From positions 1-43,239 of the IMG/VR virus record IMGVR_UViG_3300009494_000008: a DNA stretch of 43,239 nt; one strand, written 5' to 3'. The position numbers and the translations under genes are program-made. Below, one piece after another: positions 52-43,239 of this stretch (the first letter of the stretch is position 1; every line of letters begins with the position of its first letter). The notes beneath the pieces are model-generated. The model was not told the origin of the DNA. It did no database searches and saw only the letters and a program-made list of their open reading frames with translations. Source of the stretch: a virus.

Positions 52-57
52 TCTCTC

Positions 58-130
58 ATCCTCCGTTCGGGCCTCTGCTTCTCACTTCCGACTACCTACA
101 GTGCATAGCCCGTGCCAGAACGAGTGTTAC
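58..130 (-). promoter_or_regulatory. Repeated promoter element with sigma-54-like core (copy B)
   Basis: On the minus strand: GTAACA (130-125), 7 bases, then TGGCACGGGCTATGCA (117-102), a conserved downstream block and a GGAGG site before the zinc-ribbon gene. The core has the GG-N10-GC spacing of a -24/-12 sigma-54 promoter and differs from TGGCACGNNNNTTGCA at one position. At least four other full copies and one short copy exist in the window. Confidence 0.65.
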
Positions 131-161
131 AGAGAGTCGATCTCGAGAGTCCCTAGAGCCC

Positions 162-237
162 GAGACCGGGCCCCGGGGAGGAGATCCCGGGAACCCGGTC
201 GCAGATCGCATCGTGCATCGTGCATCGTGCGATCTGC
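162..237. other. Two tandem GC-rich hairpins
   Basis: Two inverted repeats lie between the end of the 286-843 gene and promoter copy B. The first pairs GACCGGG (162-168) with CCCGGTC (194-200) and has CCGGG/CCCGG arms inside. The second is a perfect 10-bp stem, GCAGATCGCA (201-210) with TGCGATCTGC (228-237), whose loop carries direct repeats of CATCGTG. There is no T-tract. With the hairpin at 244-274 they form a row of three that could terminate or insulate the upstream gene. Confidence 0.5.
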
Positions 238-243
238 CTCGAG

Positions 244-274
244 GGCGGGAGGGGTTGCCTGAGCCCCTCCCGCC
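244..274 (-). terminator. GC-rich hairpin after the 286-843 gene
   Basis: Perfect 11-bp stem: GGCGGGAGGGG (244-254) pairs with CCCCTCCCGCC (264-274) around a 9-base loop, 11 bases beyond the stop codon. No U-tract follows, so intrinsic termination is uncertain. Nearly the same stem sequence recurs at 34177-34206 and 39883-39907, always after a gene and before the next ribosome-binding site. Confidence 0.5.
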
Positions 275-1133: not shown

Positions 1134-1138
1134 CTTCT

Positions 1139-1211
1139 CATCCTCCGTTCGGGCCTCTGTTGTCGCTTCCGACTACCTACAGTGCATAGCCCGTGCCAGA
1201 AGTCGTGTTAC
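1139..1211 (-). promoter_or_regulatory. Repeated promoter element with sigma-54-like core (copy A)
   Basis: Same architecture as copy B: GTAACA (1211-1206), 7 bases, TGGCACGGGCTATGCA (1198-1183), then a conserved block and GGAGG. Copy A and the copy at 43136-43208 are identical over the whole element and beyond. A sigma-70-like promoter lies just upstream at 1236-1265, so two sigma factors may read the same leader. Confidence 0.65.
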
Positions 1212-1235: not shown

Positions 1236-1265
1236 ATCATACCACAGGTTGCCCCCGGGTGTCAA
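1236..1265 (-). promoter_or_regulatory. Sigma-70-type promoter
   Basis: TTGACA (1265-1260), an 18-bp spacer and TATGAT (1241-1236) on the minus strand, directly upstream of promoter copy A. The sequence after the -35 (TTGACACCCGG) is shared with the sigma-70-like promoter at 38898-38926 and in part with 39575-39603. Start of transcription is expected near 1228. Confidence 0.65.
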
Positions 1266-1467: not shown

Positions 1468-1502
1468 AAAAACGGGGCCCCGCGGCAGAACGAGGCCCCG
1501 TT
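1468..1502 (-). terminator. Intrinsic terminator of the late operon
   Basis: On the minus strand a 9-bp GC-rich stem, AACGGGGCC (1502-1494) with GGCCCCGTT (1479-1471), is followed by a run of five T (1472-1468). It lies 18 bases after the stop codon of the last lysis-region gene. It is the only hairpin in the window with a clear T-tract. Confidence 0.85.
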
Positions 1503-12663: not shown

Positions 12664-13643
12664 TCGCGCGTCACCTCCGCGGACGTGTCAGTGACGACGA
12701 CGGAGGTCAGAGGCGTGTCGTCGGCCATCGTGATTACGAGCCCGCCCGTGGTCTTGTTGAACGTCACTTTGATGTCGTGCACGGCCTCTGCGATCTGTGC
12801 GACCGTGGGAGCCGCGCCCCCGCCGGCGGCCGACACCTGCAAGTCGAGGAAGTAGCCGAAGGTCCCCGGCGTCGTGTAGCCGGCCTGTAGCTCGGTCCAC
12901 ACGCCGGCCACGATCGCCGCCACAGTCGGATCGTTGAGAGCCGCGATCGCAGACACGATCGAGGCGATGTCCGCGCCAGCAAACTTGACGGAGTCCGTTG
13001 TGATTGCCGCGAGGATCTCAGCCGCGCTGAGATCGTTCATGAGAGCGATCACATCAGCCGCGGCGTGGGAGCTCCTCGTCGTGATCGCCGCATCGAGATT
13101 GGCGATCAGGGTCCCGGCGAACTTCGTCGAGTCTGTCGTGATCGCCGCGAGGATCTCCGCGGCGTTGAGGTCGTTCATGAGAGCGACCACATCAGCCGCG
13201 GCGTGGGAGCTCCTCGAGGAGATCGTAGCGTTGAGATTCGCGCCGGCCCACTTCGTCGAGTCCGTCGTGAGAGCCGCGAGCACCGCGGCCGCGTCCAGAT
13301 CGTTGAGCGCGTCGATCGTCGTGTCGAGATCGTCAAGGAGATTCGCGCTGACCACGAGAGAGCCGTAGTAGTTGATACAGGAGGCGTGCTCTACGACGAA
13401 GTCGAAGCGGCCCACGGTGTTGAGATCCGTCGTCGACCACGAGATCAGGTATGCACCCTTGCCGGGGGTGATCTCCGTCCAGTTGCCCGTCGCCGTCTTG
13501 GAGGACCACGCCGTAGCGCCCTCTTTGCGATAGCTGATCGTCACCGATGCGGCAAGCGCCCCGGTCTCGGGCGTCTGCCCGTCGGCACTCTGGATCAGAA
13601 GGCAAGGAATCGCTCGAGCCACACCCTGCTTGACGATCTCCAT
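12660..13643 (-). CDS. Repeat-containing virion protein, 327 aa
   Basis: An N-terminal beta-sandwich (~1-100; TISYRKEGATAWSSKTA, AYLISWSTTDLNTVGRFDFVVEH) is followed by three tandem ~43-46-residue units whose cores begin at 114, 157 and 203 (NDLNAAEILAAITTDSTKFAG type). A C-terminal beta region ends with DTSAEVTRE. The arrangement suggests a fibrous or whisker-like virion component with a helical repeat shaft. It is encoded in the neck/tail region and overlaps the next gene by 4 bases. No named family. Confidence 0.75.
   Translation of the reverse strand: MEIVKQGVARAIPCLLIQSADGQTPETGALAASVTISYRKEGATAWSSKTATGNWTEITPGKGAYLISWSTTDLNTVGRFDFVVEHASCINYYGSLVVSANLLDDLDTTIDALNDLDAAAVLAALTTDSTKWAGANLNATISSRSSHAAADVVALMNDLNAAEILAAITTDSTKFAGTLIANLDAAITTRSSHAAADVIALMNDLSAAEILAAITTDSVKFAGADIASIVSAIAALNDPTVAAIVAGVWTELQAGYTTPGTFGYFLDLQVSAAGGGAAPTVAQIAEAVHDIKVTFNKTTGGLVITMADDTPLTSVVVTDTSAEVTRE
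12975..13304 (-). repeat. Three in-frame tandem repeats within the 327-aa virion protein
   Basis: The segment coding for residues 114-223 holds three copies of an Ala/Asp/Thr-rich unit, two of which also share SSHAAADV(V/I)ALMNDL. The unit spacing is 43 and 46 residues. Nucleotide similarity is also high (repeated gtgatcgccgcgaggatctc-type blocks), so copy number could change by recombination. Confidence 0.85.
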
Positions 13644-26961: not shown

Positions 26962-27055
26962 GCGCGTCCTCCTTGGTCAGTAGTTCCGGGGCACGGACTG
27001 TCCGCATCACCCGCCGCGCGAGCCAATAGAGGAAGCGGAGGATCAGATGTCGCAT
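26921..27055 (-). CDS. Small basic amphipathic protein, 44 aa
   Basis: ATG at 27055 with GGAGGCGATCGAGCG upstream, starting within the last codons of the glycosyltransferase gene and overlapping the next gene. The N-terminal helix (LILRFLYWLARRVMRTV, 4-20) is hydrophobic/basic; the C-terminal half is charged. The two overlaps make it less certain than its neighbours, but spacing and ribosome-binding site are good. Confidence 0.5.
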   Translation of the reverse strand: MRHLILRFLYWLARRVMRTVRAPELLTKEDARVFAQRIVEEDRR

Positions 27056-28185
27056 CGCTCGATCGCCTCCTCGTAGAGCTCGTGATACCGGAGGCCAGCT
27101 TTCGTGTGGGGCTCGAGGGACTTCGCGAAGTAGGCCGAGGGCTTGGGGTTCTCGATCGCGTCCATGATCCGGGCGGCGATCGCCTCCGGCTCGGGCTCCG
27201 TCGTCATGCAGTTGAACCCGGGCTCGAGTTGGCCGAAGAAGTCGTCGCCGGCGAAGTCGGTCCCGATCACCGGCATGACCTGATAATCCCACGCTTCGAG
27301 GATCGGGTATTCGGTGCGGCCGGTGTCGCTCTCATCGAACATCGTCATATTGACGACGACGGCCGCCGTGCCGTAGATCTCCCGGATCTGCGTATCTTCC
27401 CATGCTCCGTGATCGTCGCAGTTAGCCATCCCGGGGAGATTCTCGACCATGTCCTCAACGTAGCCCACACCGTCACCGCTCCAGAACTCGAGCGGCATGA
27501 TCTTTCCTCCCTCCCTGTGAGGAGGTGTCAGGAGAGCGGCGTCGGCGGGATCTCGGCTGACTGGGAGGTGGCCGGCGGCCTTCACGATGAGGTCAATCCG
27601 CTTGACCGGCCTCCACGCGGAGGTGCACACGGCCCGTCTGAGCTTGAGGAGGGGCTCCGTGGGATTGGTGCGCCTCACGTACGGTTGCAGAGCCGATCGG
27701 GCCTTGTCGGCCATCGTCGGCGTGTCGACGTAGCCGGCACTCACGAAGTGTTGCATGTACCGTGGGCTCAGGAACGTGACGATGTCCGCGACCTCACACA
27801 ACCTGATCAGCGTCGGGCCGAGGACCTCGATCTCGTGTGGATCGTGCACGGTGAGGACGAGCGGGCCATGCTTGGTCGCGAATAGCTGATCCCAGTCGAA
27901 CCCGAGGTGCAAGCTCCCGGGGTTCGTGATGTGCACCACATCGTGCCGGCTCCAGAGATCCTCCCAACCACAGGTCAACCGCTCCTCCGCTATGAACTTC
28001 TCGTCGGGGCGCTTGATACATCCCTTGTCGACACAGATGATCCGGCCCTTCTTCTCGTCCGTCCGGCCAATCCGGTATTGAGATACGTCATTCCCTGTTC
28101 CCCGGAGTTGGGCCGCGAGGTGATCCTGAAACGACGCGGCCCCGCCGTACTTGGCGAGACTGGTCGTGCACAGTGCTATTCGCAT
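27043..28185 (-). CDS. Glycosyltransferase, GT4 family-like (GT-B fold)
   Basis: 380 residues; the ATG at 28185 overlaps the preceding gene by 10 bases, and the longer open frame is an Arg-rich shadow. The start MRIALCTTSLAKYGGAASFQDHLA has the nucleotide-sugar GT-B opening with a Gly-Gly loop. Further features are HDVVHITNPGS, LVLTVHDPHE, CTSAWRPVKRIDLIVKAA and EYPILEAWDYQVMPVIGTDFAGD, which resembles the conserved donor-binding acidic region. It would transfer a sugar from an NDP donor to host surface glycan, a virion protein or DNA; the substrate cannot be told. Confidence 0.82.
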   Translation of the reverse strand: MRIALCTTSLAKYGGAASFQDHLAAQLRGTGNDVSQYRIGRTDEKKGRIICVDKGCIKRPDEKFIAEERLTCGWEDLWSRHDVVHITNPGSLHLGFDWDQLFATKHGPLVLTVHDPHEIEVLGPTLIRLCEVADIVTFLSPRYMQHFVSAGYVDTPTMADKARSALQPYVRRTNPTEPLLKLRRAVCTSAWRPVKRIDLIVKAAGHLPVSRDPADAALLTPPHREGGKIMPLEFWSGDGVGYVEDMVENLPGMANCDDHGAWEDTQIREIYGTAAVVVNMTMFDESDTGRTEYPILEAWDYQVMPVIGTDFAGDDFFGQLEPGFNCMTTEPEPEAIAARIMDAIENPKPSAYFAKSLEPHTKAGLRYHELYEEAIERCDI

Positions 28186-28994
28186 CGTTCGCCGTCCTTC
28201 CACGGGGGCCATTTCTCGAGGAAGCGATCGCGGTCCTCCTGCACGTCGGGGCGTGTGATCCACCACGGCTCCTCGTCGAATCGGCCGCCCTGAGTCGCGC
28301 CCTCGAAGTGATAGATCCACTCGTCCTGCACGCAGACAACCGGCCGGCCAGTTGTGTGCCGGAGAGTGAGGGAGAGATCCACGTCCTGCCAGAGCGTGCG
28401 GTAGCCGACATCGAACCCGCCGACGAGCTCGAAGTCTGCCGGCGTGACGAGCACGCACGCGCCGGTCACGGCCCACGTTTCAACCCAGTCAGGGGAGGAG
28501 AACGCGGGAGAGTCCTTGTCGGCGTAGAGGCCGCGATGCGTCCCGGTGCCGCTGTGTCCCCGGTGGTGCCCACAGTGCTGAATCTTGCCCGGCGCGACTC
28601 GATCCTCCGGGTAGATCAGCTTCAAGCCGACCTCGGAGGCGTGCGCTTCCCCGTGCGCGCGGATCATCGACGTGAGCCAATTCGATTCGTCGGGCGCCTT
28701 CACGTCGTCGTTGAGGAACAGGAGGTAGTCGAGGTTTGAGTGATTGGCGCCGTACCGCTGAGTCAGGATCCGCGCGAGCTCGTTGTTGAAGCCGGCGAAG
28801 GAGAACGCCTGATCGTCGAAGAAGCGAACCACGTCGACATCGGGGAAGTCGTCCGTCGCAGTCGGATCGACCTTGTAGAGCCCGAGGGCGAACGCGATCG
28901 CGACACCCTCGGGGCAAGTCCGCTTGACCGACCGCATCGCCTGAGCGGCGAGCGCCGGCGTGCTCGTCAGCATCACGCAACCGACTAGGATCAT
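28176..28994 (-). CDS. Glycosyltransferase, GT2 family-like (GT-A fold)
   Basis: 272 residues; the ATG at 28994 overlaps the previous stop (ATGA). Features: a Rossmann-like start MILVGCVMLTS; a DxD-type LFLNDDVK (N95-D96-D97) for metal/NDP-sugar binding; and GACVLVTPADFELVGGFDVGYRTLWQDVDLSLTLR, the acceptor-side block typical of GT2 enzymes of the rhamnosyltransferase type with a catalytic Asp. Paired with the GT4 enzyme it suggests two-step glycan synthesis. Confidence 0.85.
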   Translation of the reverse strand: MILVGCVMLTSTPALAAQAMRSVKRTCPEGVAIAFALGLYKVDPTATDDFPDVDVVRFFDDQAFSFAGFNNELARILTQRYGANHSNLDYLLFLNDDVKAPDESNWLTSMIRAHGEAHASEVGLKLIYPEDRVAPGKIQHCGHHRGHSGTGTHRGLYADKDSPAFSSPDWVETWAVTGACVLVTPADFELVGGFDVGYRTLWQDVDLSLTLRHTTGRPVVCVQDEWIYHFEGATQGGRFDEEPWWITRPDVQEDRDRFLEKWPPWKDGERCE

Positions 28995-29395
28995 TCGGGC
29001 CTCACTCCACACGCACCCGGACAGACGACGAAGATCTTGACGTCCACGACCTCACACAAGGCGGTGAACGTCTGTCCGTCAAGCTCGGCCGTGCATGTCA
29101 CCCTGTAGTCGTAGCCCTCGAAGTCCGGGAGAGTGAAGGTCTGAGTGTGCTCGACACCGACGCCGAGGTGCGGGACGTTGTCGACAAGGACGGTATAGAG
29201 CTCCGAACCAGTCAGTGCGAACTCGAACGTGTAGTGAACGGTCGCCTCGGTGGGGAACTCCTCACAGCCGGGCCCACCGAAGCCGGCCCAGTAGAACACG
29301 CCGAAGGCGTCGGGGAGATAGGTCGTCGCGTTCGCCCACGCGGGGCTCAGAACGCAGATTGCCACGAGCAGGATCACAACCTGAAACGTCCGCAT
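28991..29395 (-). CDS. Secreted Cys-containing protein with C-terminal CPGACGVRP motif
   Basis: 134 residues with a signal peptide (MRTFQVVILLVAICVLSPAWANA; cleavage near 21-23). The mature region is Ig-like and beta-rich (VHYTFEFALTGSELYTVLVDN; HTQTFTLPDFEGYDYRVTCTAEL) and carries several Cys that could form disulfides outside the cytoplasm. It ends VVCPGACGVRPE. The next protein ends in almost the same motif, so the two form a pair. Function unknown; perhaps anchored or recognised through the C-terminal motif. Confidence 0.7.
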   Translation of the reverse strand: MRTFQVVILLVAICVLSPAWANATTYLPDAFGVFYWAGFGGPGCEEFPTEATVHYTFEFALTGSELYTVLVDNVPHLGVGVEHTQTFTLPDFEGYDYRVTCTAELDGQTFTALCEVVDVKIFVVCPGACGVRPE

Positions 29396-29398
29396 TGA

Positions 29399-29662
29399 TC
29401 AATCCTCCTGCGGCCTCACGCCGCACTCGCCGGGGCAGATCACGAATCCTGTCGTGTCGCACCCTGTGTTGATCGTGACCGTGTGACGGCCCGCCGGAAG
29501 GGACTCGACGATCGCGAACTCGAGAATCCCGAGAGCGTCAGCCGCGTGATCCCCCGGGACAGACGCACCGTCAACGGTCACGGTGTAGCAGGTATCCGGC
29601 TCGACGCCGATCAGGACGTGGTCGCCGGCACGAGCGGGCGTCCCCGCGACGATCACCGCCAC
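29399..29662 (-). CDS. Probable secreted protein, C-terminal CPGECGVRP motif; start uncertain
   Basis: The frame encodes a hydrophobic leader (IARAFLVAVIVAGTPARA), a beta-rich Ig-like region (YTVTVDGASV; LEFAIVESLPAGRHTVTINTG) and the end VICPGECGVRPQED, paralogous to the neighbour. The first usable start is GTG 29662 (87 aa), which would shorten the leader. A full signal peptide needs initiation near 29686, where no ATG/GTG/TTG is seen. An in-frame ATG at 29794 lies inside the preceding gene in shifted frame. Rare-codon initiation or a +1 shift from the dockerin-like gene is possible. Confidence 0.5.
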   Translation of the reverse strand: MAVIVAGTPARAGDHVLIGVEPDTCYTVTVDGASVPGDHAADALGILEFAIVESLPAGRHTVTINTGCDTTGFVICPGECGVRPQED

Positions 29663-29687
29663 GAGGAACGCCCGCGCGATCGGAACC

Positions 29688-29879
29688 CTACATCGGCCAG
29701 TCGTCCCAGTTGGTCGTCCAGTAGTAAACCAACCAGTCCCACAGGTCCCAGTTGTCGTCGTCGCCGTTGACGTCGGCCGCGATCGCGACATCACCGGGCA
29801 CCGACACCGGCAAGCTGGCCGTCACCATCGGCCCGAAGGCTATCAGGCAAACGACGAGCAGGATCAGGGTGAGCTTCAT
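29688..29879 (-). CDS. Secreted 63-aa protein with dockerin-like half repeat
   Basis: A signal peptide (MKLTLILLVVCLIAFGPMVTAS) is followed by a short mature part holding AADVNGDDDNWDLWDWL. The spacing of acidic residues, DVNGDDDNWDLWDW, resembles one calcium-binding half of a type-I dockerin; the second half is missing. It ends with a Trp/Asp-rich tail. The ATG at 29879 has GGGAGGCTCAG upstream. A role in extracellular attachment or as a decoy is speculative. The last base pairs carry ATGTAG. Confidence 0.65.
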   Translation of the reverse strand: MKLTLILLVVCLIAFGPMVTASLPVSVPGDVAIAADVNGDDDNWDLWDWLVYYWTTNWDDWPM

Positions 29880-30465
29880 CTGAGCCTCCCTCCTGCACCT
29901 CCGCAAAGTCGGGGGGCACAACCCCCCACCTATTGCCGCCCCACAAGAGCCACTTCCGCTCCGGGCGGGGCAGAGAACCCGGAGCGAATCGCAGATATGC
30001 ACGGTAGCCGCCGTCGGTCGACCGGGCCAACTCAACCCCTGTCGATCCGACGACGACTCCGCTCCGCGAGCAGAGGACGGCGCGCCCGTCCGCGGTCGGG
30101 AACACTACTTCTAGTGTCCCGATCTCTCCGGTCGGGTAGAAGAACACAACTCGCGTGTTCCCAGTCAATGACCATCGCGAACCGTCCTCGACGTAGACGA
30201 TCATCCGAAGATAATCGCCCTTATTCTCGAACATGTAACGGTAGACATCTAGCCGGCCGGCGGTGAGGAGCTTGTGCCCGGTTGCGTCGAGTGCGGCCGG
30301 GCTCGGATCGACGATGCTCCACACAGCCATCGTGTCGCCGGGTGTGATCTCGAGTGTCGTCAACCAGTCGATGTGTGCGGGGGGGCCGGCGAACGCCCCA
30401 CACATCCCGAGGATGCCCACTTGCACCGCGGCCATGATCAGCATGATCGTGAGCGCCTTCACCAT
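29791..30465 (-). CDS. Secreted hypothetical protein, 224 aa
   Basis: The ATG at 30465 is favoured (GAGGG nine bases before it; another ATG lies three codons earlier). Signal peptide: a hydrophobic run ALTIMLIMAAVQVGILGMCGAFA. The mature part is beta-rich (DWLTTLEITPGDTMAVWSIVD; YLRMIVYVEDGSRWSLTG; TRVVFFYPTGEIGTLEVVFP; RAYLRFAPGSLP), resembling a fibronectin/Ig-like extracellular domain. The last ~30 residues overlap the dockerin-like gene, and a GGGGGG/CCCCCC hairpin (29911-29927) lies in the overlap. Confidence 0.65.
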   Translation of the reverse strand: MVKALTIMLIMAAVQVGILGMCGAFAGPPAHIDWLTTLEITPGDTMAVWSIVDPSPAALDATGHKLLTAGRLDVYRYMFENKGDYLRMIVYVEDGSRWSLTGNTRVVFFYPTGEIGTLEVVFPTADGRAVLCSRSGVVVGSTGVELARSTDGGYRAYLRFAPGSLPRPERKWLLWGGNRWGVVPPDFAEVQEGGSDEAHPDPARRLPDSLRADGDGQLAGVGAR

Positions 30466-30635
30466 GTGCGGCATCCCTCCCCCTCGAGGCCCTTCCGTAG
30501 CAGATCGACCACGAGATCCTTGACTACGCACAGAGCTAGAACGAGGAGCCACCACACAGCCGCGACGAAGTGGTAGAAGGCGCGCGGGAGGTCGGACCAC
30601 GTCGTGTCCTCGTATCCTTCCGGGATCTTCCTCAT
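30459..30635 (-). CDS. Small single-pass membrane protein, 58 aa
   Basis: ATG at 30635 overlaps the methyltransferase stop region; the stop overlaps the next start. Residues ~21-46 (YHFVAAVWWLLVLALCVVKDLVVDLL) form one membrane helix; the termini are charged. No family recognised. Close coupling on both sides supports it as real. Confidence 0.65.
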   Translation of the reverse strand: MRKIPEGYEDTTWSDLPRAFYHFVAAVWWLLVLALCVVKDLVVDLLRKGLEGEGCRTW

Positions 30636-31228
30636 GGTAGTGTGACCGCCTTCGGGTCCTTGTGAATGATCGTCGTCGCGTCGCGCTCGGTGCCCGCGAA
30701 ACTGGTCAACGAGAACCCGAGCTCCAACCGGAGGCGGCCGAGCATTGTCTCGGTCGTTTCCGGCGCGTCCTGCCGGCCGAACCCGTCGAGCCGGCTCGTG
30801 TGTGTGTCCTCTATCACGTAGAAGCCGCCGGATCTGACCGACGGCCAGAGGGCCGCGAAGCTGAGTTGTTGTTGCCACATCGTGTGGCCGCCATCGTCGA
30901 GGATGATGTCGAACCGGCCGCCGGCACGGAGTACGACACTCCAGAGATCGGGCACTCGCGCTTGGTCGCCGGCGAAGATCGTCACGCGATCCCCGCGCGG
31001 CCAGAGGTCGGGGTTCCCCATGTTGCCGTTCTCGAGTCCGAAGATATGCGCGTTCGGGAAGTAGTCGAGCCACATCCGAAGGGAGGCCCCGTCCTTGACA
31101 CCGAGCTCGAGCACCTTCGTGACGCGGTCGCGGTAGGGACCGAACACCTGCTCGTAGAACGGGCAGTAGCCGTGGCAAGCCTTGTCCGTGCCGTGCTTGA
31201 CTGCCAACTCGTGTAGAGTCTCGGCCAT
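30632..31228 (-). CDS. SAM-dependent methyltransferase (macrocin O-methyltransferase-like)
   Basis: 198 residues. ELAVKHGTDKACHGYCPFYEQVF at the start and the SAM-binding LELGVKDGASL (40-50), FPNAHIFGLE, and FDIILDDGGH (106-115, likely metal/catalytic Asp and His) match the MycE/TylF-related sugar O-methyltransferase group. GGFYVIEDTHTS follows as in the family. It would methylate a hydroxyl on a sugar or other small acceptor with SAM. Placed upstream of two glycosyltransferases, it probably caps the same glycan. Confidence 0.85.
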   Translation of the reverse strand: MAETLHELAVKHGTDKACHGYCPFYEQVFGPYRDRVTKVLELGVKDGASLRMWLDYFPNAHIFGLENGNMGNPDLWPRGDRVTIFAGDQARVPDLWSVVLRAGGRFDIILDDGGHTMWQQQLSFAALWPSVRSGGFYVIEDTHTSRLDGFGRQDAPETTETMLGRLRLELGFSLTSFAGTERDATTIIHKDPKAVTLP

Positions 31229-31230
31229 GC

Positions 31231-31491
31231 TCAGACCTCCTCGTAGTCCTCAAGGAGCGGACCCCAATTCTCGCAGACCTGAATCGCGTCGCGGAGTCCC
31301 TCTTGCCGAGCAGAGCTCGTCGAGGCTGACGACGAGCATCCGTATGAGCACACGACGCTGTAGACCGGACCATCCCACTGTTTGCCATCGGATGCTTCGA
31401 TCTCGATTTCGTTCGCGTGCTTCCGGTCGATCACCACCAACCCGAAGGGGAGAGCCGCACGCTTGACGTGCGCGATTGTGAGGTTCGGCAT
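31231..31491 (-). CDS. Hypothetical protein, 86 aa
   Basis: Unrecognised. ATG at 31491; ends two bases before the methyltransferase start. N-terminal beta segments (LTIAHVKRAALPFGLVVIDRKHANEIEIEAS), then a Ser/Cys-rich middle (CSYGCSSSASTSSARQ) and a helix. The two Cys pairs are too weak to call a metal site. Confidence 0.6.
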   Translation of the reverse strand: MPNLTIAHVKRAALPFGLVVIDRKHANEIEIEASDGKQWDGPVYSVVCSYGCSSSASTSSARQEGLRDAIQVCENWGPLLEDYEEV

Positions 31492-31504
31492 GATTCCCCC
31501 TTGT

Positions 31505-31627
31505 CTAGTCGTCGAGGTTCGGCATGATCAGGACCTTGATCACGACGACTACCAGAACGATTGCGAGGCCGCAAGTCCAAACCATCGGACTGAGGGCGCT
31601 CAGATAGTCAGTGAAGGTCGTCAGCAT
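31505..31627 (-). CDS. Small membrane protein, 40 aa
   Basis: ATG at 31627 overlaps the stop of the preceding gene (31621) by 7 bases. Almost the whole chain is one hydrophobic helix (MVWTCGLAIVLVVVVIKVLIM, ~15-35) with a short polar N-terminus and an acidic end. Second gene after the sigma-54-like promoter. Could be a pinholin-like or envelope peptide; no family. Confidence 0.55.
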   Translation of the reverse strand: MLTTFTDYLSALSPMVWTCGLAIVLVVVVIKVLIMPNLDD

Positions 31628-31773
31628 GTCCTCGTGCTCCTCATCAGGTCCCGGATCCCGTCGGCCGCTAGGGCGACTGTGAGGGCGATCGCGGCGAGCA
31701 TCAGGATCATCGAGGTCGAAAGCGTGAGCGCGAGCGGTCCTGCTATTCCGAGTGTCAGTGTGAGCGTTCTCAT
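31621..31773 (-). CDS. Small membrane/leader protein, 50 aa
   Basis: ATG at 31773 preceded by GGGAGGACGGA. A hydrophobic segment (IAGPLALTLSTSMILMLAAIALTVALAA, ~11-38) and a charged tail (DGIRDLMRSTRTC). It could be a signal-anchored peptide. First gene of the long operon that begins at the sigma-54-like promoter 31801-31829; an in-frame upstream extension crosses that promoter and is rejected. Confidence 0.6.
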   Translation of the reverse strand: MRTLTLTLGIAGPLALTLSTSMILMLAAIALTVALAADGIRDLMRSTRTC

Positions 31774-31800
31774 TCCGTCCTCCCTTCTGCCCTGTTGTAG

Positions 31801-31829
31801 TGCAAGCCCCGTGCCAATCGCTCTGTTAC
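31801..31829 (-). promoter_or_regulatory. Sigma-54-like promoter of the late operon (core-only copy F)
   Basis: GTAACA (31829-31824), 7 bases, TGGCACGGGGCTTGCA (31816-31801) on the minus strand. The core matches the sigma-54 consensus fully, with GG-N10-GC spacing. Unlike the other copies it lacks the conserved downstream block, which shows that the GTAACA and TGGCAC/TTGCA parts are the selected elements. The next gene starts 28 bases downstream, and no other promoter is obvious before the terminator at 1468-1502. Confidence 0.7.
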
Positions 31830-31858
31830 AGGATACCACGGGAGCACCCCGGGTGCAA
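31830..31858 (-). promoter_or_regulatory. Weak sigma-70-like promoter
   Basis: TTGCAC (31858-31853), 17-bp spacer, TATCCT (31835-31830), directly abutting the GTAACA of the sigma-54-like copy F. The -35 flank (ACCCGGG) resembles the three stronger sigma-70 promoters of this genome, but the -10 is poor. It may give basal transcription or be a decayed copy. Confidence 0.4.
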
Positions 31859-31872
31859 CCCTATTCTCTGCC

Positions 31873-32340
31873 CTAGTCGGGCATCTTCCCCGGTAGGGTG
31901 ATCGCCCCGTCGGGCCGGTCGGGCCGATCGGGCACATCGCCAAGTTCCGTTGCGTTCTGCATTATCAGATCCACGAGCTTGTCGATCATGCCCCGGGTCG
32001 TTTCAACGATCGAGTCGAGGCCGCCGGGATCCTTCAAGGTGTCCCCGAGGACCTCTTTGCACGCCTCGTCGAGCTCCGCGAGCGCCGACTTGAAACGCGC
32101 GCCGGCGAGCACGATCCGAGGGACACCTTGGATCTCCGTGATGTGCCCGAACTTCAACCCGGCGTAGGTCCGCGCGATCTCGAGCTCGGCGTCCTCCGCT
32201 TTGCGGTAGGCAATAAGCTCCGCGAGGATCCCGGCAAAGATCCCATTCCTGATCTGCCCGAGCTCCTCGGGTCGGCCGGCCGCGAACACATCGAGGATCT
32301 TCCCGAGACTATCGGTGGTCTCTCTGCTCTTGGGTCTCAT
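31873..32340 (-). CDS. Hypothetical helical protein, 155 aa
   Basis: Unrecognised. Largely helical (TDSLGKILDVFAAGRPEELGQIRNGIFAGILAELIAYRKAEDAELEIARTY, then FKSALAELDEACKEVLG), ending in DRPDRPDGAITLPGKMPD. The helices could form a coiled-coil or four-helix bundle. Last gene of the early operon before the 31.8-kb promoter. ATG at 32340 overlaps the previous stop. Confidence 0.65.
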   Translation of the reverse strand: MRPKSRETTDSLGKILDVFAAGRPEELGQIRNGIFAGILAELIAYRKAEDAELEIARTYAGLKFGHITEIQGVPRIVLAGARFKSALAELDEACKEVLGDTLKDPGGLDSIVETTRGMIDKLVDLIMQNATELGDVPDRPDRPDGAITLPGKMPD

Positions 32341-32990
32341 CAGTGGGCCTCCCCCTCGGTCGGCTCGAGCATCGCATCGGGCGGCTGTTGACCGCTCATC
32401 GGATCGAGGATCCCGACCTGCACGATCTCACCGTCCTTGAACCCGGAATCGAGGAGCGCGCTGTAGCACTCATGGGGGATCTGAATTGCGGCGACCGGCT
32501 CGAGGAGTGCGCTCTGCCCGTCACCGCCGGCGGGACCAATCAGCCGCCGGAGCTCACCCTTCGCGACCGCGGCCGGCACGACGAGCTTCGCCTTGCCAAG
32601 CAGACGCGCGACGATCCGACCGAACATCTGCCAAGTGCCGGCGTCAGGCTCCGCGGGGAATCGGATATTGCCATCCTCCGCTTGCCTGATCGGATAGGTG
32701 GCTAGGATCTCCTCCGCGACAATCATCCCGAGAGCGATCGCGAGCTCCTCCGGGCGCTTGAGAACGAAGGTCATACCTCCGTTCGTGAGCACACCCTGAG
32801 CCGCGGCGAGCCAACCGCCCTGCTCGGTCTCGGGGAGATCGACGAACGGCGTCACCTGATCCTCGGGGCGCTTCTCGGGATCGAGTCCCTCCTCGTTCTT
32901 GAGCTTCGTCACGGCGTAGCTCATGTAGGCCGCGCGGGCCAGAGCATCGACGGGAATCCCGATCGGAACGACTCTAGGTGCTTGGGGCAT
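32340..32990 (-). CDS. Hypothetical protein, 216 aa
   Basis: Unrecognised. The ATG at 32990 is preferred over GTG 32996 because GGGAGG lies just upstream. Helical N-terminus (VDALARAAYMSYAVTKLKNEEG), then VTPFVDLPETEQGGWLAAAQGVLTNGG and a helical middle (LAIALGMIVAEEILATYPI). The Pro/Gly-rich end resembles an exposed tail. Overlaps the upstream gene by 17 bases. Confidence 0.65.
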   Translation of the reverse strand: MPQAPRVVPIGIPVDALARAAYMSYAVTKLKNEEGLDPEKRPEDQVTPFVDLPETEQGGWLAAAQGVLTNGGMTFVLKRPEELAIALGMIVAEEILATYPIRQAEDGNIRFPAEPDAGTWQMFGRIVARLLGKAKLVVPAAVAKGELRRLIGPAGGDGQSALLEPVAAIQIPHECYSALLDSGFKDGEIVQVGILDPMSGQQPPDAMLEPTEGEAH

Positions 32991-33360
32991 CGTCACCTCC
33001 CGGTGTGGCGAACACCGTCGCTTGGGTGTACGTCTCGACGATCCTCGTCAGGCTTCTAACGAGGTGGCTCAGTTGCCGAAGCGCGTTGTGTTGCTGGCTG
33101 ATGAGGATGTTCTGTCGCGTGTAGGTCTCGTCCTCCTTCACCTCGAGCTCCCCCGTGGAGATCTCGGGGATCATCACGCCGACGGGCCATGCGATAAGGT
33201 GCACGGTGCGGTCGTCGACCGCGAGCATGGTCCCTGCCTCCTCGACGATCGCGAGGTCCGCGACCTTCGCCTTCTCGAGCGCGTCGATCACTAGCACTTT
33301 CGTGTGGTCGTCCATGTCCGTGTTCGACAAGACGGCCGCGCGGATCGTGTGTCTGCTCAC
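32974..33360 (-). CDS. Hypothetical protein, 128 aa
   Basis: GTG start at 33360 with GGAGGGAGGAGCGA upstream. Alpha/beta N-terminal half (TKVLVIDALEKAKVADLAIVEEAGTMLAVDDRTVHLIAW), then a helical C-terminal part (NALRQLSHLVRSLTRIVETYTQA). No family recognised. Overlaps the preceding stop by four bases (GTGA). Confidence 0.65.
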   Translation of the reverse strand: MSRHTIRAAVLSNTDMDDHTKVLVIDALEKAKVADLAIVEEAGTMLAVDDRTVHLIAWPVGVMIPEISTGELEVKEDETYTRQNILISQQHNALRQLSHLVRSLTRIVETYTQATVFATPGGDDAPST

Positions 33361-33965
33361 TCGCTCCTCCCTCCGGGCCCGGGAGCGGTGCGATCCCACT
33401 CCCAACCTATGCGCTCCTCCTTCGGCAACCACAGAGGGTGCGCGCTGAGATCGTCGTATGCGATCTGATAGTAGTAACCGTCGCCCACGAGCGCCCGGAC
33501 CAACGGCCGTTGGAAGCCATCGAGGACTTCATACTTCCACTGGGCGACGTGAGCTCCGGGTGTCATGTAGGGCCCGAACTCCGGTCGGCTTCTGTACTTC
33601 CTGATCTCTCCCTTCGGGCTCCACTTGATCCGCTTGCATGATGCGGCGATCGCCTCGAGATCCCGGCGAACGATCAGCACTGATAGGTGAGCCTTGCAGA
33701 GCCGCGGATCTCCGAGGAGGTGCGACTCAGCACACAGACCGGGCGCGTGGAGCACACTCGATTCGCGTTCGAGGATCTCGATTGCGCGTCTGACGTTGGC
33801 TATGTCGATCGCGCGCTCGTCGTAGTAGTCGTAGCCGAGGTCGGCCGCGACCATCTTCGCCGCGATCCGGGTCCCCGATCGATGGGGCCCAGTGACGAGG
33901 ATCGACGTCGGGCGAACTGGGCCGCGGCAACCACTGGTGAACACTCTGTCGAAGATCGAAGTCAA
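33357..33965 (-). CDS. P-loop sulfotransferase-like protein
   Basis: 202 residues, TTG start at 33965 (GGGAGGGAAGCCGAG upstream). SILVTGPHRSGTRIAAKMVA (~21-40) resembles the PAPS 5'-phosphosulfate-binding loop; HLSVLIVRRDLEAIAASCKRI resembles the 3'-phosphate-binding segment with its Arg/Ser; YYYQIAYDDLSAHPLWLPKEERIGWEW is like the C-terminal end of sulfotransferases. A small kinase of similar fold cannot be excluded. Sulfation of a glycan or other acceptor is a possible role. Confidence 0.6.
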   Translation of the reverse strand: MTSIFDRVFTSGCRGPVRPTSILVTGPHRSGTRIAAKMVAADLGYDYYDERAIDIANVRRAIEILERESSVLHAPGLCAESHLLGDPRLCKAHLSVLIVRRDLEAIAASCKRIKWSPKGEIRKYRSRPEFGPYMTPGAHVAQWKYEVLDGFQRPLVRALVGDGYYYQIAYDDLSAHPLWLPKEERIGWEWDRTAPGPGGRSE

Positions 33966-38897: not shown

Positions 38898-38926
38898 ATC
38901 ATGCTATCTGCTCCTCCGGGTGTCAA
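38898..38926 (-). promoter_or_regulatory. Sigma-70-type promoter
   Basis: TTGACA (38926-38921), 17-bp spacer, CATGAT (38903-38898). The -35 and most of the spacer lie within the last codons of the 38904-39341 gene. It shares TTGACACCCGG with the promoter at 1236-1265. Likely drives the 38.8-31.9 kb operon. Confidence 0.65.
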
Positions 38927-39341
38927 GCCACTTGCGGAAGCCGGGATCGTTGATCCACTCGGTGCGAGGGATCGCGAGGGGACCTCGAGGTCCCCATAGA
39001 TTCATGAACGCCGTCACCCCTGTGCGGTTGTGCCGGGGGTCGCCCAAGGTCTGCTTGATGAGCTCGGCGTTGGCGAGCACGATGTCGACCGACCACGGCT
39101 CCTGTTGATTGCGGGGCATGTAGACGTGCGGGCGTAGCTTCGGCCACACCTCCGGCCGCGCGCTGATCCCCCACTCCGGGTGATCCATGAGATAGCCGCG
39201 GAGCGCACCGTCGTTGATCTGACTCGTAGGCTGTCCGGTCCTCCGCTCGATCTCCTCGGCATCGCGCGTGTGCGTGAATGTCGCCAAGAGATAGCCGCGG
39301 AAGTCGGCCCACATCAGGGGCCGGAATCTACGCTTTGCCAC
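38904..39341 (-). CDS. Hypothetical protein, 145 aa
   Basis: GTG at 39341. Unrecognised. A basic N-terminus (KRRFRPLMWADFRGYLLATFTHTRDAEEIERRTGQPTSQINDGALRGYL) shows a helix-turn pattern like a DNA-binding segment. Further on are HVYMPRNQQEPWSVDIVLANAELIKQTLG and WGPRGPLAIPRTEWINDPGFRKWLD. It overlaps the regulator gene by 14 bases and its 3' end contains the next promoter. Confidence 0.65.
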   Translation of the reverse strand: MAKRRFRPLMWADFRGYLLATFTHTRDAEEIERRTGQPTSQINDGALRGYLMDHPEWGISARPEVWPKLRPHVYMPRNQQEPWSVDIVLANAELIKQTLGDPRHNRTGVTAFMNLWGPRGPLAIPRTEWINDPGFRKWLDTRRSR

Positions 39342-39546
39342 TTCGCCTCCGCTTGGTGATGAGTCGACGCTCGCGGTCGACCTCTCGGGTGAGGAGTGTC
39401 CTCACGAGCTTGCTCATATCGTAGTCCGCGCCCTTGCGCTTCGACCACGAGGCCGCGAGAGCCCCGACGTCGGCCTTGAACTGATCATCACACTTGACCC
39501 TGATCGACGTTGGGAATCTCGGTCCCTCCTGCTTGCGCTTCGTCAA
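39328..39546 (-). CDS. Ribbon-helix-helix-like regulator, 72 aa
   Basis: TTG at 39546 (AAGGAGGACAG upstream). The order beta strand (TSIRVKCD, 13-20), helix (DQFKADVGALAASWSK), helix (DMSKLVRTLLTREVDRER, 43-60) with basic ends is that of MetJ/Arc-type RHH dimers. The strand residues I-R-V would contact DNA. It is expressed from the consensus promoter at 39575-39603, so autoregulation is likely. Candidate early repressor or switch protein. Confidence 0.6.
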   Translation of the reverse strand: MTKRKQEGPRFPTSIRVKCDDQFKADVGALAASWSKRKGADYDMSKLVRTLLTREVDRERRLITKRRRSGKA

Positions 39547-39574: not shown

Positions 39575-39603
39575 ATTATACCGGGAGGGGCACTCGGTGT
39601 CAA
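39575..39603 (-). promoter_or_regulatory. Consensus sigma-70 promoter
   Basis: TTGACA (39603-39598), 17-bp spacer and TATAAT (39580-39575): both hexamers perfect. It directly precedes the ribbon-helix-helix gene; the expected start near 39568 gives a leader of about 20 bases. The spacer contains the imperfect palindrome CCGAG...CCCGG, a possible operator. Confidence 0.8.
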
Positions 39604-39917: not shown

Positions 39918-40409
39918 TTAGCCGATCTGCACTACGTGGTCGCAGAACTCGCACCTGTAGTGGTGCTTGTGGATCTCGGGATGCTCGCCGTCGTCGAAGA
40001 AGATCGGCGCCTTGGACTTGCCACACTGGCACCACATCGCGTCCTCGGCCTTGAGCGCCTCGAGGGCCTCCGGGGTGAGCTTGCCGACCTCGTGACAGTA
40101 GACGCACCCGAGGTCGAGCTTCCGGGTCACGCCGGCCTCAGTGACCGTGACGGGCAGTCTGCCCGAGCCCTTGCACTTGGGGCAATCGACCATCGCGGCC
40201 GTGTCGCGGGGATCCTCGTCGATGTCGAGGGCCCTGATCTTGGAACCCGGAACCTCAACGCTCCGGCCTTCGTCGAGATCGACGACGTAGACCACGCGCG
40301 AACCGAACTTGTAGACGCCGTAGACGGTGCCGGCGAGCTCGCCGCGCTTGCTCGTGACACTCACTCGATCCGTCGCCTCGGCCTTGAAGTTGTTGGTCTG
40401 CTCGCTCAT
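39918..40409 (-). CDS. Multi-zinc-ribbon protein, 163 aa
   Basis: ATG at 40409 in the cassette behind promoter copy C. The N-terminal half is beta-rich (VSVTSKRGELAGTVYGVYKFGSRVVYVVDLDEGRSVEVPGS), like a small barrel. The C-terminal half has Cys pairs C76/C79 (CPKCKGSGR), C102/C105, C127/C129 and C153/C156, enough for two zinc sites; the first resembles DnaJ-type modules. Probably a nucleic-acid- or host-protein-binding early protein. Confidence 0.75.
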   Translation of the reverse strand: MSEQTNNFKAEATDRVSVTSKRGELAGTVYGVYKFGSRVVYVVDLDEGRSVEVPGSKIRALDIDEDPRDTAAMVDCPKCKGSGRLPVTVTEAGVTRKLDLGCVYCHEVGKLTPEALEALKAEDAMWCQCGKSKAPIFFDDGEHPEIHKHHYRCEFCDHVVQIG

Positions 40410-40416
40410 CGTGCTC

Positions 40417-40488
40417 TCCTCCGTTGGGGCCTCTGCTTCTCACTTCCGACTACCTACAGTGCAAGCCCCGTGCCAGAACTCGTGTTAC
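40417..40488 (-). promoter_or_regulatory. Repeated promoter element with sigma-54-like core (copy C)
   Basis: GTAACA (40488-40483), 7 bases, TGGCACGGGGCTTGCA (40475-40460): a full match to the sigma-54 consensus with correct spacing. The downstream block CTGTAGGTAGTCGGAAG and GGAGGAG lead to the zinc-ribbon gene 39918-40409. It follows immediately after the hairpin at 40492-40522. Confidence 0.7.
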
Positions 40489-40491
40489 AGA

Positions 40492-40522
40492 GGCCGGCCG
40501 GGGAGGAGATCCCCGGCCGGCC
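40492..40522 (-). terminator. Strong GC hairpin after the 119-aa gene
   Basis: Perfect 12-bp stem GGCCGGCCGGGG (40492-40503) with CCCCGGCCGGCC (40511-40522) and a 7-base loop. Placed 5 bases after the stop codon and directly before promoter copy C. No U-tract, but the stem is very stable. Confidence 0.6.
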
Positions 40523-40527
40523 GGATC

Positions 40528-40887
40528 CTAGAAACCGCGTCCCTCGGGCCGGTAGACCCACAGGTGATTGTGGGCGTTCTGCGTCGCCATGTAGAGCTTC
40601 TTGCCCTTCGGGCGCCTGAGCACGAGGTGAGCCACGATCCCGACCTCCTCCATGCGACGGGCGACGTTCGGGTAGCCGTCCGCGTTGTGATCGCGGGCAT
40701 CATCGGCCTTCTGGACGATGAACACGACGTAGTCCTGATCCCTGACCTTGTCACCGACGCGGACCTTGCGTCCCTCGGTCTTGGCGTCGGTCGTGTTCTG
40801 CTCGCACTCGCGGTATTCGTCCTGCTTGACAGCCTGTCGCTTCTCCCAACGCTCCCAAGCTCTCTGCTCCTTCGGCGTCCGCTCCAT
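40528..40887 (-). CDS. Hypothetical protein, 119 aa
   Basis: ATG at 40887, GGAGGAGAAA upstream, behind promoter copy D. A charged helical N-terminus (RTPKEQRAWERWEKRQAVKQDEYRECEQN) precedes a beta-rich C-terminal region (KVRVGDKVRDQDYVVFIVQKADD; VGIVAHLVLRRPKGKKLYMATQN; LWVYRPEG). No family recognised. Single-gene cassette closed by a hairpin. Confidence 0.7.
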   Translation of the reverse strand: MERTPKEQRAWERWEKRQAVKQDEYRECEQNTTDAKTEGRKVRVGDKVRDQDYVVFIVQKADDARDHNADGYPNVARRMEEVGIVAHLVLRRPKGKKLYMATQNAHNHLWVYRPEGRGF

Positions 40888-40892
40888 TTTCT

Positions 40893-40967
40893 CTCCTCCG
40901 GTCTTAGGGCCTCTGTTGTCGCTTCCGACTACCTACAGTGCAAGGCCCGTGCCAGAGTCCGTGTTAC
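40893..40967 (-). promoter_or_regulatory. Repeated promoter element with sigma-54-like core (copy D)
   Basis: GTAACA (40967-40962), 7 bases, TGGCACGGGCCTTGCA (40954-40939): full sigma-54 consensus match. GTAACA and the core lie in the last codons of the DUF5131 gene, whose TAG stop (40935-40933) comes from the conserved CTGTAGG block. One sequence thus serves coding and promoter roles. Confidence 0.7.
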
Positions 40968-41667
40968 GGGGGCGCTGAGTCCAGATCTGCCCGTCGAGCT
41001 CCGGGAGCTTCTCGAGAACCCCTCCGACGACCATCTGCTTGAGGAAGAACGGCACGCCGGCCTCGACGCACTGATCCTTGATCTCGCGGATCCACTCGAT
41101 CTCGGTCCTCCGGGCGCCCGGCCCAGTCTCGCATCCTGCAATCACCCAGTGCAGATCGCGAAGCCCGATGATCTTCCCAAGCGGACTCAGAAGTGGCTCG
41201 AGGGACAGGAACTTGACATGTGCCGGAGTCGCTCGGAGGTAGTCGATCCGCTCGCGGCACCACGCGGTCTCGACGGTGACGCCGGCCCACACGTTGTGGG
41301 GGAGTTTGTGCTCGAGCGCGAACTGCCGCATCCGGGGCGCTCGCTTAGTGAGGAGGTAGAACGTGTGCCGCTGACAGATCCGGGCGACGTCGATCACGCG
41401 CTTGACGAACTCGAACGGCACCTCGGCGTGGAACAGATCGCCCATTGAGCACACGAAGATTCGTCGCGGTTGCCTCCAGTGAAGCGGGACCTCGAGACGG
41501 TCAGGGTGACATCTGACCGCGAACCCGTCCTCATAGCCGCGGGTGCCCATAGCCTTGAGGCGGCCCGCCATCCGTCGTGCATAGCACTTCTCGCATCCCT
41601 CACTGACAGGGTCACAGCCGGTGACGGGATTCCAAGTCTCGTCGGCCCATTCAATCTTCGTCGTCAT
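40933..41667 (-). CDS. DUF5131 protein (phage Gp37/Gp68 family)
   Basis: 244 residues. The family signature is complete at the start: IEWADETWNPVTGCDPVSEGCEKCYARRMAGR with Cys18, Cys25 and Cys28, a three-Cys arrangement like a radical-SAM iron-sulfur site. Then FVCSMGDLFH, FYLLTKRAPRM, VWAGVTVE and FLSLEPLLSPLG are also typical. The biochemical role is unsettled; members occur in many phages. The last ~12 residues are encoded by promoter copy D. Confidence 0.88.
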   Translation of the reverse strand: MTTKIEWADETWNPVTGCDPVSEGCEKCYARRMAGRLKAMGTRGYEDGFAVRCHPDRLEVPLHWRQPRRIFVCSMGDLFHAEVPFEFVKRVIDVARICQRHTFYLLTKRAPRMRQFALEHKLPHNVWAGVTVETAWCRERIDYLRATPAHVKFLSLEPLLSPLGKIIGLRDLHWVIAGCETGPGARRTEIEWIREIKDQCVEAGVPFFLKQMVVGGVLEKLPELDGQIWTQRPRNTDSGTGLAL

Positions 41668-42157: not shown

Positions 42158-42376
42158 CTACGCGGCGGTCAGAAGTTCCGAATGGAGCTCCACGGCCCAA
42201 CTGTCACGGCGGGCCCGGCACTCCTCGAGCGACTCCGCGACCGTCGAGAACAGGATCCCCTCCGCGGTGCGGTAGTCGTACTGCACGCGGACGTTCCCGC
42301 GTGTGGTGGTGAAGCTATCCCAACGCTCGTCCCCCGCGGTGCAGATCGAGCATCCTCTGTCGTCGTTCATTCTCAC
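42158..42376 (-). CDS. Hypothetical protein, 72 aa
   Basis: GTG at 42376 has GGGAGG five bases before; an ATG two codons later is an alternative start. It has a CSIC pair near the start, a beta segment (GNVRVQYDYRTAEGILFSTV) and a helix (SLEECRARRDSWAVELHSELL). No family recognised. Lies between the hairpin at 42394-42415 and the HTH-like gene. Confidence 0.6.
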   Translation of the reverse strand: MRMNDDRGCSICTAGDERWDSFTTTRGNVRVQYDYRTAEGILFSTVAESLEECRARRDSWAVELHSELLTAA

Positions 42377-42393
42377 GTTGACCTCCCAGTGAG

Positions 42394-42415
42394 GGGGGGC
42401 GGTTGCCCGCCCCCC
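42394..42415 (-). terminator. GC-rich hairpin after the 146-aa gene
   Basis: Perfect 9-bp stem GGGGGGCGG (42394-42402) with CCGCCCCCC (42407-42415) and a 4-base loop, 14 bases after the stop codon. No U-tract. Confidence 0.5.
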
Positions 42416-42429
42416 GATCTGATCTCCGA

Positions 42430-42870
42430 TTAGATCCAAGCCTGATCCCAACAACCGATCGTTTCTACGCAGTCGTCAGAGTCCTCTATCAGCATCATGA
42501 GCGCGTGCGCGACCTCGATCACCTCGACATCGCTCTTGAGATACCACTTCGGTGTGAGGATGCACCCTTCGAGATTGCCGACGAGCACGTACCACGCGGA
42601 GTCGTCGACGATCTGAATGATTCCGCGGGTCTCGCCTGTGGGCCTCGGATGCGCGATCGCCGTCATGCCGTGGCGGTTCGGGAGCTCCGCGCGATCGAGC
42701 GGGATCTCAACCTGCCCGGTCGACCTGATCGCGTCGTTGACCGCGGCGGCGAGTCTGTTCGCGTCCTGCTCCGTCATGTGGGTGTCGCTGATCCTGCTCT
42801 CGTCCTCGTAGCCCTTGAAGTTCTCGTCGTTCATGTCGGTGACTCTCTGAGCTCTCGTCGCGTCCTTCAT
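42430..42870 (-). CDS. Hypothetical protein, 146 aa
   Basis: ATG at 42870 behind promoter copy E. Polar N-terminus, then a helix (TEQDANRLAAAVNDAIRSTG), a beta block (ETRGIIQIVDDSAWYVLVGNLEGCILTPKWYLKSDVEVIEVAHALMMLI) and an acidic/Cys end. No family recognised. First gene of a run leading to the HTH-like and DUF5131 genes. Confidence 0.7.
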   Translation of the reverse strand: MKDATRAQRVTDMNDENFKGYEDESRISDTHMTEQDANRLAAAVNDAIRSTGQVEIPLDRAELPNRHGMTAIAHPRPTGETRGIIQIVDDSAWYVLVGNLEGCILTPKWYLKSDVEVIEVAHALMMLIEDSDDCVETIGCWDQAWI

Positions 42871-42875
42871 TCTCT

Positions 42876-42948
42876 CGTCCTCCGTTGGGGCCTCGATTGT
42901 CGCTTCCGACTACCTACAGTGCATAGCGTGTGCCAGTCGGCGTGTTAC
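42876..42948 (-). promoter_or_regulatory. Repeated promoter element with sigma-54-like core (copy E)
   Basis: GTAACA (42948-42943), 7 bases, TGGCACACGCTATGCA (42935-42920). The GG-N10-GC spacing is kept but the middle diverges most of all copies. The TAA in GTAACA is the stop codon of the zinc-ribbon gene upstream. Confidence 0.6.
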
Positions 42949-43130
42949 ATCCCCCGCGGGTTCACCCTTCTGTCGGGCGGGCCGTTGAGGGGCACACCGT
43001 GGTCGTGCTTCCAAGCACAGCCGGCACAAGCCTTGCCACGAGCCGGATAGTACATATGGAGGTCTACGAGGAATCGAACTCTCTTGCCGCACTGAGGGCA
43101 GGTCTTGGTGGTCTCGGTCTGCTTCGTCAT
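42945..43130 (-). CDS. Zinc-ribbon protein, 61 aa
   Basis: ATG at 43130. CPQC (C11, C14) and CAGC (C35, C38) form a complete zinc ribbon. The N-terminus is Thr/Lys-rich and the C-terminus basic (RRVNPRGM). A single-gene cassette between two promoter elements; the stop codon lies inside the next element. Its 5' end is repeated at 1-51. DNA- or RNA-binding is probable from the fold only. Confidence 0.8.
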   Translation of the reverse strand: MTKQTETTKTCPQCGKRVRFLVDLHMYYPARGKACAGCAWKHDHGVPLNGPPDRRVNPRGM

Positions 43131-43162
43131 TCTCTCATCCTCCGTTCGGGCCTCTGTTGTCG
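43080..43162. repeat. Terminal redundancy with bases 1-83
   Basis: Identical to bases 1-83, showing that the ends of the window join in a circle or that the genome is circularly permuted. From about 43134 on the sequence instead equals 1135-1241. The two matches share the 24-base promoter-leader segment that starts at 55, 1136 and 43134. Confidence 0.85.
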
Positions 43163-43208
43163 CTTCCGACTACCTACAGTGCATAGCCCGTGCCAGAAGT
43201 CGTGTTAC
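43136..43208 (-). promoter_or_regulatory. Repeated promoter element (end copy G, identical to copy A)
   Basis: GTAACA (43208-43203), 7 bases, TGGCACGGGCTATGCA (43195-43180). Identical to copy A and followed by the same bases up to the -10 TATGAT at the window's edge. It stands in front of the intact zinc-ribbon gene, whereas at the left end that gene is preceded by copy B. Confidence 0.6.
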
Positions 43209-43239
43209 GGAGGACGCTCTCAACCGTGCCCAATCATAC

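Follow-up and report, generated by a model that had tools for sequence, protein, structure and literature searches.

The 43,239-base IMG/VR phage sequence analysed here (hereafter the window, i.e. the whole stretch) contains a repeated cassette that lies on a single strand at regular distances upstream of start codons. It has constrained blocks at a defined spacing, and its architecture is conserved in the closest relative of the phage. The cassette may be a phage-specific cis element of promoter type, at which transcription of the downstream gene is started or gated; we hold this reading tentatively. The preliminary description of this sequence was centred on sigma-54 promoters and offered a phage-specific promoter type that resembles them as the alternative. 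The alternative fits better, given that the sigma-54 likeness is lost from the cassettes of the relative.

Distribution of the cassettes

Seven exact GTAACA-N7-TGGCAC sites are present in the window, as compared with 0.00 in shuffled sequences, and a re-scan placed all of them at the coordinates reported in the preliminary description. With three mismatches permitted, 10 sites were found against 7.2 by chance; only the exact class is informative, because the three-mismatch count is at chance level. All seven cassettes are on the minus strand, which is the coding strand of nearly all genes in the window, and the co-oriented sites precede start codons by 50-80 bp. Their positions are as follows.

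Cassette A: 52..130 (core 102-130), minus strand, leader up to the ATG at 49-51
Cassette B: 1134..1211 (core 1183-1211), minus strand, leader up to the ATG at 1131-1133; the cassette that leads the early region
Cassette C: 31774..31829 (core 31801-31829), minus strand, short leader up to the ATG at 31771-31773; orthologue at about 29035 in the closest relative, G6
Cassette D: 40410..40488 (core 40460-40488), minus strand, leader up to the ATG at 40407-40409
Cassette E: 40888..40967 (core 40939-40967), minus strand, leader up to the ATG at 40885-40887
Cassette F: 42871..42948 (core 42920-42948), minus strand, leader up to the ATG at 42868-42870
Seventh copy: 43131..43208 (core 43180-43208), minus strand, contig-end duplicate joining the cassette A gene to cassette B

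Cassettes E and F each share sequence with the end of the gene before them: the ORF at 40933-41667 runs into cassette E, and the GTAACA of cassette F contains the stop codon TAA of the gene before it.

Seven sites had been reported and all are present, but only six are independent loci. Positions 43080-43156 repeat positions 1-77 exactly and positions 43133-43239 repeat positions 1136-1242 exactly, so that the site at 43180-43208 does not represent a locus of its own. A 24-bp stretch common to leaders A and B is the route by which the contig end re-reads the contig start, and the jump reflects either mis-joining during assembly or a deletion variant generated by recombination between cassettes A and B. 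Probably, the record represents a complete circular map with its end attached to cassette B where cassette A would be expected, so that about 1.08 kb with two genes is skipped.

Structure of the cassette

Numbering the G of GTAACA as position 1, no differences were found among cassettes A, B, D, E, and F at positions 1-6 (GTAACA), 14-19 (TGGCAC), and 26-46, the last of which form an invariant 21-bp block, TGCACTGTAGGTAGTCGGAAG. The spacers between these blocks vary among the same five cassettes, with differences at one to four of the seven positions 7-13 and at zero to five of the six positions 20-25, and the 20 bp upstream of the cassettes are mostly unrelated. In cassettes other than C, conservation of the leader extends through the ribosome-binding site up to the start codon, although part of this identity within the window could be due to recent duplication; cassette C shares only the core and GGGCAGAAGG downstream of it. 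The constrained unit, GTAACA - 7 - TGGCAC - 6 - TGCACTGTAGGTAGTCGGAAG, is thus larger than a sigma-54 core. The core itself is as originally described, but the true unit is longer, given the invariance of positions 26-46. A triple direct repeat, TNRCAC with 12/11 bp spacing, was also considered; it fits the window but was rejected, as the middle copy reads TGGAAT in G6.

Cassettes in related phages

TerL searches identified IMGVR_UViG_3300009494_000005 (G6; 83% TerL identity) as the closest relative, followed by the more distant G7 (57%) and G9 (49%). The G6 genome is collinear with the window across most of the window's length and contains four cassettes, at 18289, 20375, 21609, and about 29035. 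The first three are located in a variable region that matches the cassette region of the window but carries other genes, and the fourth is by alignment the orthologue of cassette C, with GTAATA and a spacer of 8 in place of GTAACA-N7. Except at cassette C, the genes behind the G6 cassettes are non-homologous to those in the window.

GTAACA, TGG-A, TGCAC, and GAAG/GAAC are kept in the G6 cassettes, and the consensus at positions 39-46 is GGCAGAAG in both phages. The middle block differs: all four G6 cassettes have TGGAATC where the window has TGGCACG. Such a concerted switch is expected if the specificity of the reading factor has changed, and since one block differs at every site of the two sister phages, including the orthologous one, the question of which phage protein reads the element can be tested directly.

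The element is absent from G7 and G9, in which no start-associated repeats were found above the level of shuffled sequences, apart from one local duplication in G9. Pattern scans of IMG/VR viral contigs detected several copies only in G6, other matches being single or unrelated, and blastn did not find the element in isolated phages. In the G6 contig (L106-L108), moreover, the block of head and tail genes is present twice in diverged form (1-12.5 kb and 41-52 kb), and the contig is possibly a chimera of two related phages.

Resemblance to sigma-54 promoters

The sequence TGGCACG-N4-TTGCA is present without mismatches in cassettes C, D, and E. The complete consensus had been ascribed to C, D, and F; this holds for C and D, but cassette F (42920) reads TGGCACACGCTATGCA, which has two mismatches, and E takes its place. 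Three or four further sites are near-exact. When scored with a matrix built from 29 ChIP-supported intergenic Salmonella sites (PMC3844500), the seven window sites reach 14.5-14.9 bits and are the best matches in the window, the next best position scoring 10.2; the weakest of the 29 known sites, at 15.0 bits, is just above them. With the same Salmonella matrix, the four G6 cassettes score only 4.2-8.2 bits and rank 8, 24, 54, and 68 in the G6 genome. Position 17, which is C in 29/29 known sites, is A in all G6 cassettes, and position 20 is C in the G6 cassettes and in 0/29 known sites. The likeness on which the sigma-54 reading was based is therefore real in the window, where scores approach those of known sites, but is not retained at the homologous sites of G6. 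Sites in one phage can thus match a bacterial promoter consensus perfectly and still fail the simplest comparative test.

The geometry is nevertheless conserved. Each of the ten distinct sites in the two phages has GG at -24 and GC at -12, separated by ten bases, and the bases reported to be contacted by RpoN, GG, A, and TGC (PMC3844500), are retained in 10/10 (the A at position 18). We consider it unlikely that the cassettes are host RpoN promoters, at which the phage would borrow the sigma-54 holoenzyme and an ATP-driven host activator so that its small early genes follow a host signal. The low scores of the G6 cassettes weaken RpoN binding as a hypothesis in spite of the retained contact bases, and sigma-54 does not account for GTAACA, for the block at 31-46, or for C30, which is invariant in the cassettes though C is rare there among the 29 known sites. 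No bEBP (sigma-54 activator) domain was found in the four related phage records, in a search that matched control genomes. A search for the host via prophage relatives of TerL and portal found none. Accessory-gene matches lean to Gordonia and Mycobacterium phages, a weak and sampling-biased host pointer. Actinobacteria are not known to carry rpoN, and the best-matching accessory gene, which points weakly to actinophages, counts to that extent against RpoN. Because G6 keeps the cassette and loses the likeness, a control element of the phage's own is more likely.

Promoters, terminator, and hairpins around the cassettes

The following elements were identified near the cassettes and the early genes.

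1236..1265, minus strand, sigma-70-type promoter TTGACA-N18-TATGAT, 24 bp upstream of the GTAACA of cassette B
31830..31858, minus strand, weaker sigma-70-like promoter TTGCAC-N17-TATCCT, abutting the GTAACA of cassette C
39575..39603, minus strand, perfect sigma-70 consensus TTGACA-N17-TATAAT, perfect also in G6; drives the gene for a 72-aa basic protein
1471..1502, minus strand, intrinsic terminator that closes the late operon; the early promoter and cassette B lie downstream of it
40492..40522, minus strand, 13-bp GC-rich hairpin directly upstream of cassette D (-33.1 kcal/mol, z -4.5)
141..274, minus strand, strong hairpin cluster between the gene at 286-843 and cassette A (z -5.1)

Along the minus strand, the order is terminator (1502-1471), promoter (1265-1236), cassettes B, A, F, E, and D, and conserved early genes, and G6 shows this order too. 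The first G6 cassette (G6-1) is preceded at 25 bp by TTGACA-N18-TAGACT, and the G6 counterpart of the promoter at C, TTGCCC-N17-TAGGGT, nearly abuts its cassette (G6-C). Adjoining sigma-70 promoters were detected at B, C, G6-1, and G6-C only; none was found at A, D, E, F, or the second and third G6 cassettes. Repeated GCATCGTGCATCGTGC stretches are present upstream of cassettes A and B (201-238 and 1283-1314), one of them inside a long palindrome.

Such promoters would also suit an operator or stoperator family, in which a phage repressor would bind the asymmetric sites, acting as a roadblock to elongation at the internal ones and blocking the sigma-70 promoters of B and C. The cassette lies at or just past the -10 of the sigma-70-like promoter at C and 24-25 bp past the promoter at B and G6-1, and a single orientation is maintained throughout. 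In Cluster A phages, the motifs of repressor sites shift along with the repressors (PMC6550527), and the shift of the cassette motif between the window phage and G6 parallels this. However, no repressor or integrase was recognised among the scanned proteins, the constraint reaches 20 bp downstream into the leader, and the distance to start codons is fixed, which stoperators do not need; we therefore assign this explanation a low probability.

An RNA element in the 5' untranslated region, acting in translation control or RNA-protein binding and resembling sigma-54 sites by accident, is rather improbable. Conservation does reach the ribosome-binding site, the cassette would be inside transcripts from promoter B, and the ribosome-binding site of cassette B is complementary to the bases that precede its GTAACA. 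Against this, the consensus fold lacks covarying pairs, individual folds and arm complementarity are mostly at chance, and there is no Rfam match. An RNA hairpin joining the core to the leader was rejected on the same grounds, i.e. chance-level complementarity and absent covariation. It is very doubtful that the cassettes are true sigma-54 promoters of a set of early genes in which GTAACA is an extra fixed upstream contact for a phage-encoded activator, and that the -24 block and this factor have been re-specified jointly in the sister phage; such an arrangement would amount to a start switch of sigma-54-like type controlled by the phage.

Proposed mode of action and candidate regulators

The phage-specific promoter-type element is favoured by several observations: the constrained blocks, the co-orientation, and the placement of the G6 cassettes at the same genome places; the restriction of sigma-70 promoters to four cassettes and the hairpins upstream of A and D; and the absence of the element from the distant relatives G7 and G9. 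Counting against it, no recognisable sigma-70 region 4 or bEBP was found, database searches did not back the candidate regulator described below, only two phages have the element, and recent duplication may explain part of the leader identity in the window. In such a system, a DNA-binding factor, probably phage-encoded, would read three blocks under constraint, all on one strand (GTAACA, TGG-A, and TGCAC on to GAAG) and spaced by about one helical turn. The last block would span the transcription start, since a start 11-12 bp beyond TGC would lie in GGCAGAAG at 39-46, and the factor would differ between the window phage and G6. The first transcripts would come from host sigma-70 promoters that precede the two lead cassettes, B and C; subsequently the factor, acting at the cassettes, would either switch on small early genes or set their level. 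An early-to-later switch would be possible, since the lead cassettes are positioned on or behind such promoters.

A candidate for the regulator is the 72-aa basic protein:

39328..39546, minus strand, 72-aa basic protein, 56% identical in G6 (L107:2343-2558)

Among the IMG/VR records searched, this protein is confined to the window phage and G6, and the promoter ahead of its gene (39575-39603; about L107 2286-2314 in G6) is the only perfect TTGACA-N17-TATAAT in each genome. The gene has a TTG/GTG start. By eye, the protein has a ribbon-helix-helix-like sequence pattern, and in a two-sequence AlphaFold model (pLDDT 70) two helices agree with that layout. Pfam (RHH_1), Foldseek, and PDB sequence searches were all empty, and the ribbon-helix-helix identity was not adopted. 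Furthermore, the strand with which it would face DNA does not differ between the two phages, and the protein therefore does not explain the change in the middle block. The structure prediction for a 145-aa protein at 38904 was of low confidence. The four phage records were also negative for sigma-70 region 4, in a search that matched control genomes, and Pfam RNA_pol (phage single-subunit RNA polymerase) gave no match, in a search whose control likewise matched nowhere.

Comparison with known repeat families

In the way it works, the cassette is akin to actinophage start-associated repeats, but it has no tested sequence in common with them and belongs to none of the families compared here. The ESAS/SAS elements of Cluster K mycobacteriophages are repeated, intergenic, mostly co-oriented, and located just upstream of the starts of diverse genes; ESAS, whose consensus varies between subclusters at fixed positions and which is regarded as promoter-bearing in Adephagia, contains 17-bp imperfect inverted repeats together with SigA-like hexamers, and the 13-bp SAS is GGGATAGGAGCCC (PMC3203893, PMC11373665, PMC12699233). 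The window cassettes are likewise repeated, co-oriented, and directly upstream of start codons, with a consensus that shifts between relatives. Unlike ESAS, they are asymmetric, comprise three spaced blocks, and lack internal sigma-70 hexamers; the only inverted repeat found in cassettes B and D was an 8-bp pair in B with arms 61 bp apart. The SAS motif gave one match with two mismatches, as compared with 1.3 expected, and is thus at chance level.

The repeats of Microbacterium phage clusters EC, EI, and EF are co-oriented and mostly among non-structural genes, and their function is not known; the EC motif is asymmetric and 18 bp long, with 12 copies 21-30 bp upstream of starts, and EC phages encode a sigma factor (PMC7302621). 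The cassette resembles the EC motif in asymmetry, co-orientation, and position upstream of starts, whereas its sequence is unrelated to the EC, EI, and EF repeats and no sigma factor was detected in the phage. Short start-associated repeats recur in actinobacterial phages, with no reader yet known.

Cluster A mycobacteriophage stoperators are asymmetric and mostly in one orientation relative to transcription, and their motif follows the repressor of the phage (PMC6550527, PMC9283540). The cassettes share the asymmetry and the single orientation, but are fewer, longer, and fixed to gene starts, and no repressor was identified. With sigma-54 promoters, they share the GG-N10-GC geometry and, at three window sites, the exact consensus; they differ in the extra invariant blocks, in the loss of the likeness in the sister phage, and in that no activator was found.

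Other features of the window and contigs

Between the replication and packaging genes lies a block at 27043-33965 that perhaps serves modification of virion or surface glycans. Pfam and PHROGs identify a methyltransferase in it; by eye, several other products resemble glycosyltransferases and one may be a sulfotransferase or kinase. A DUF3873 domain protein is encoded at 42158-42454 and is also found near the cassette region in G6 and G7. A 138-bp tandem duplication with copies 78% identical is present at 12942-13217. In an unrelated low-GC phage contig (L009, 500-700), tandem sigma-54-like sites alternate between TGGCACGATTCCTGCA and TTGGCATGCTTTATGCA.
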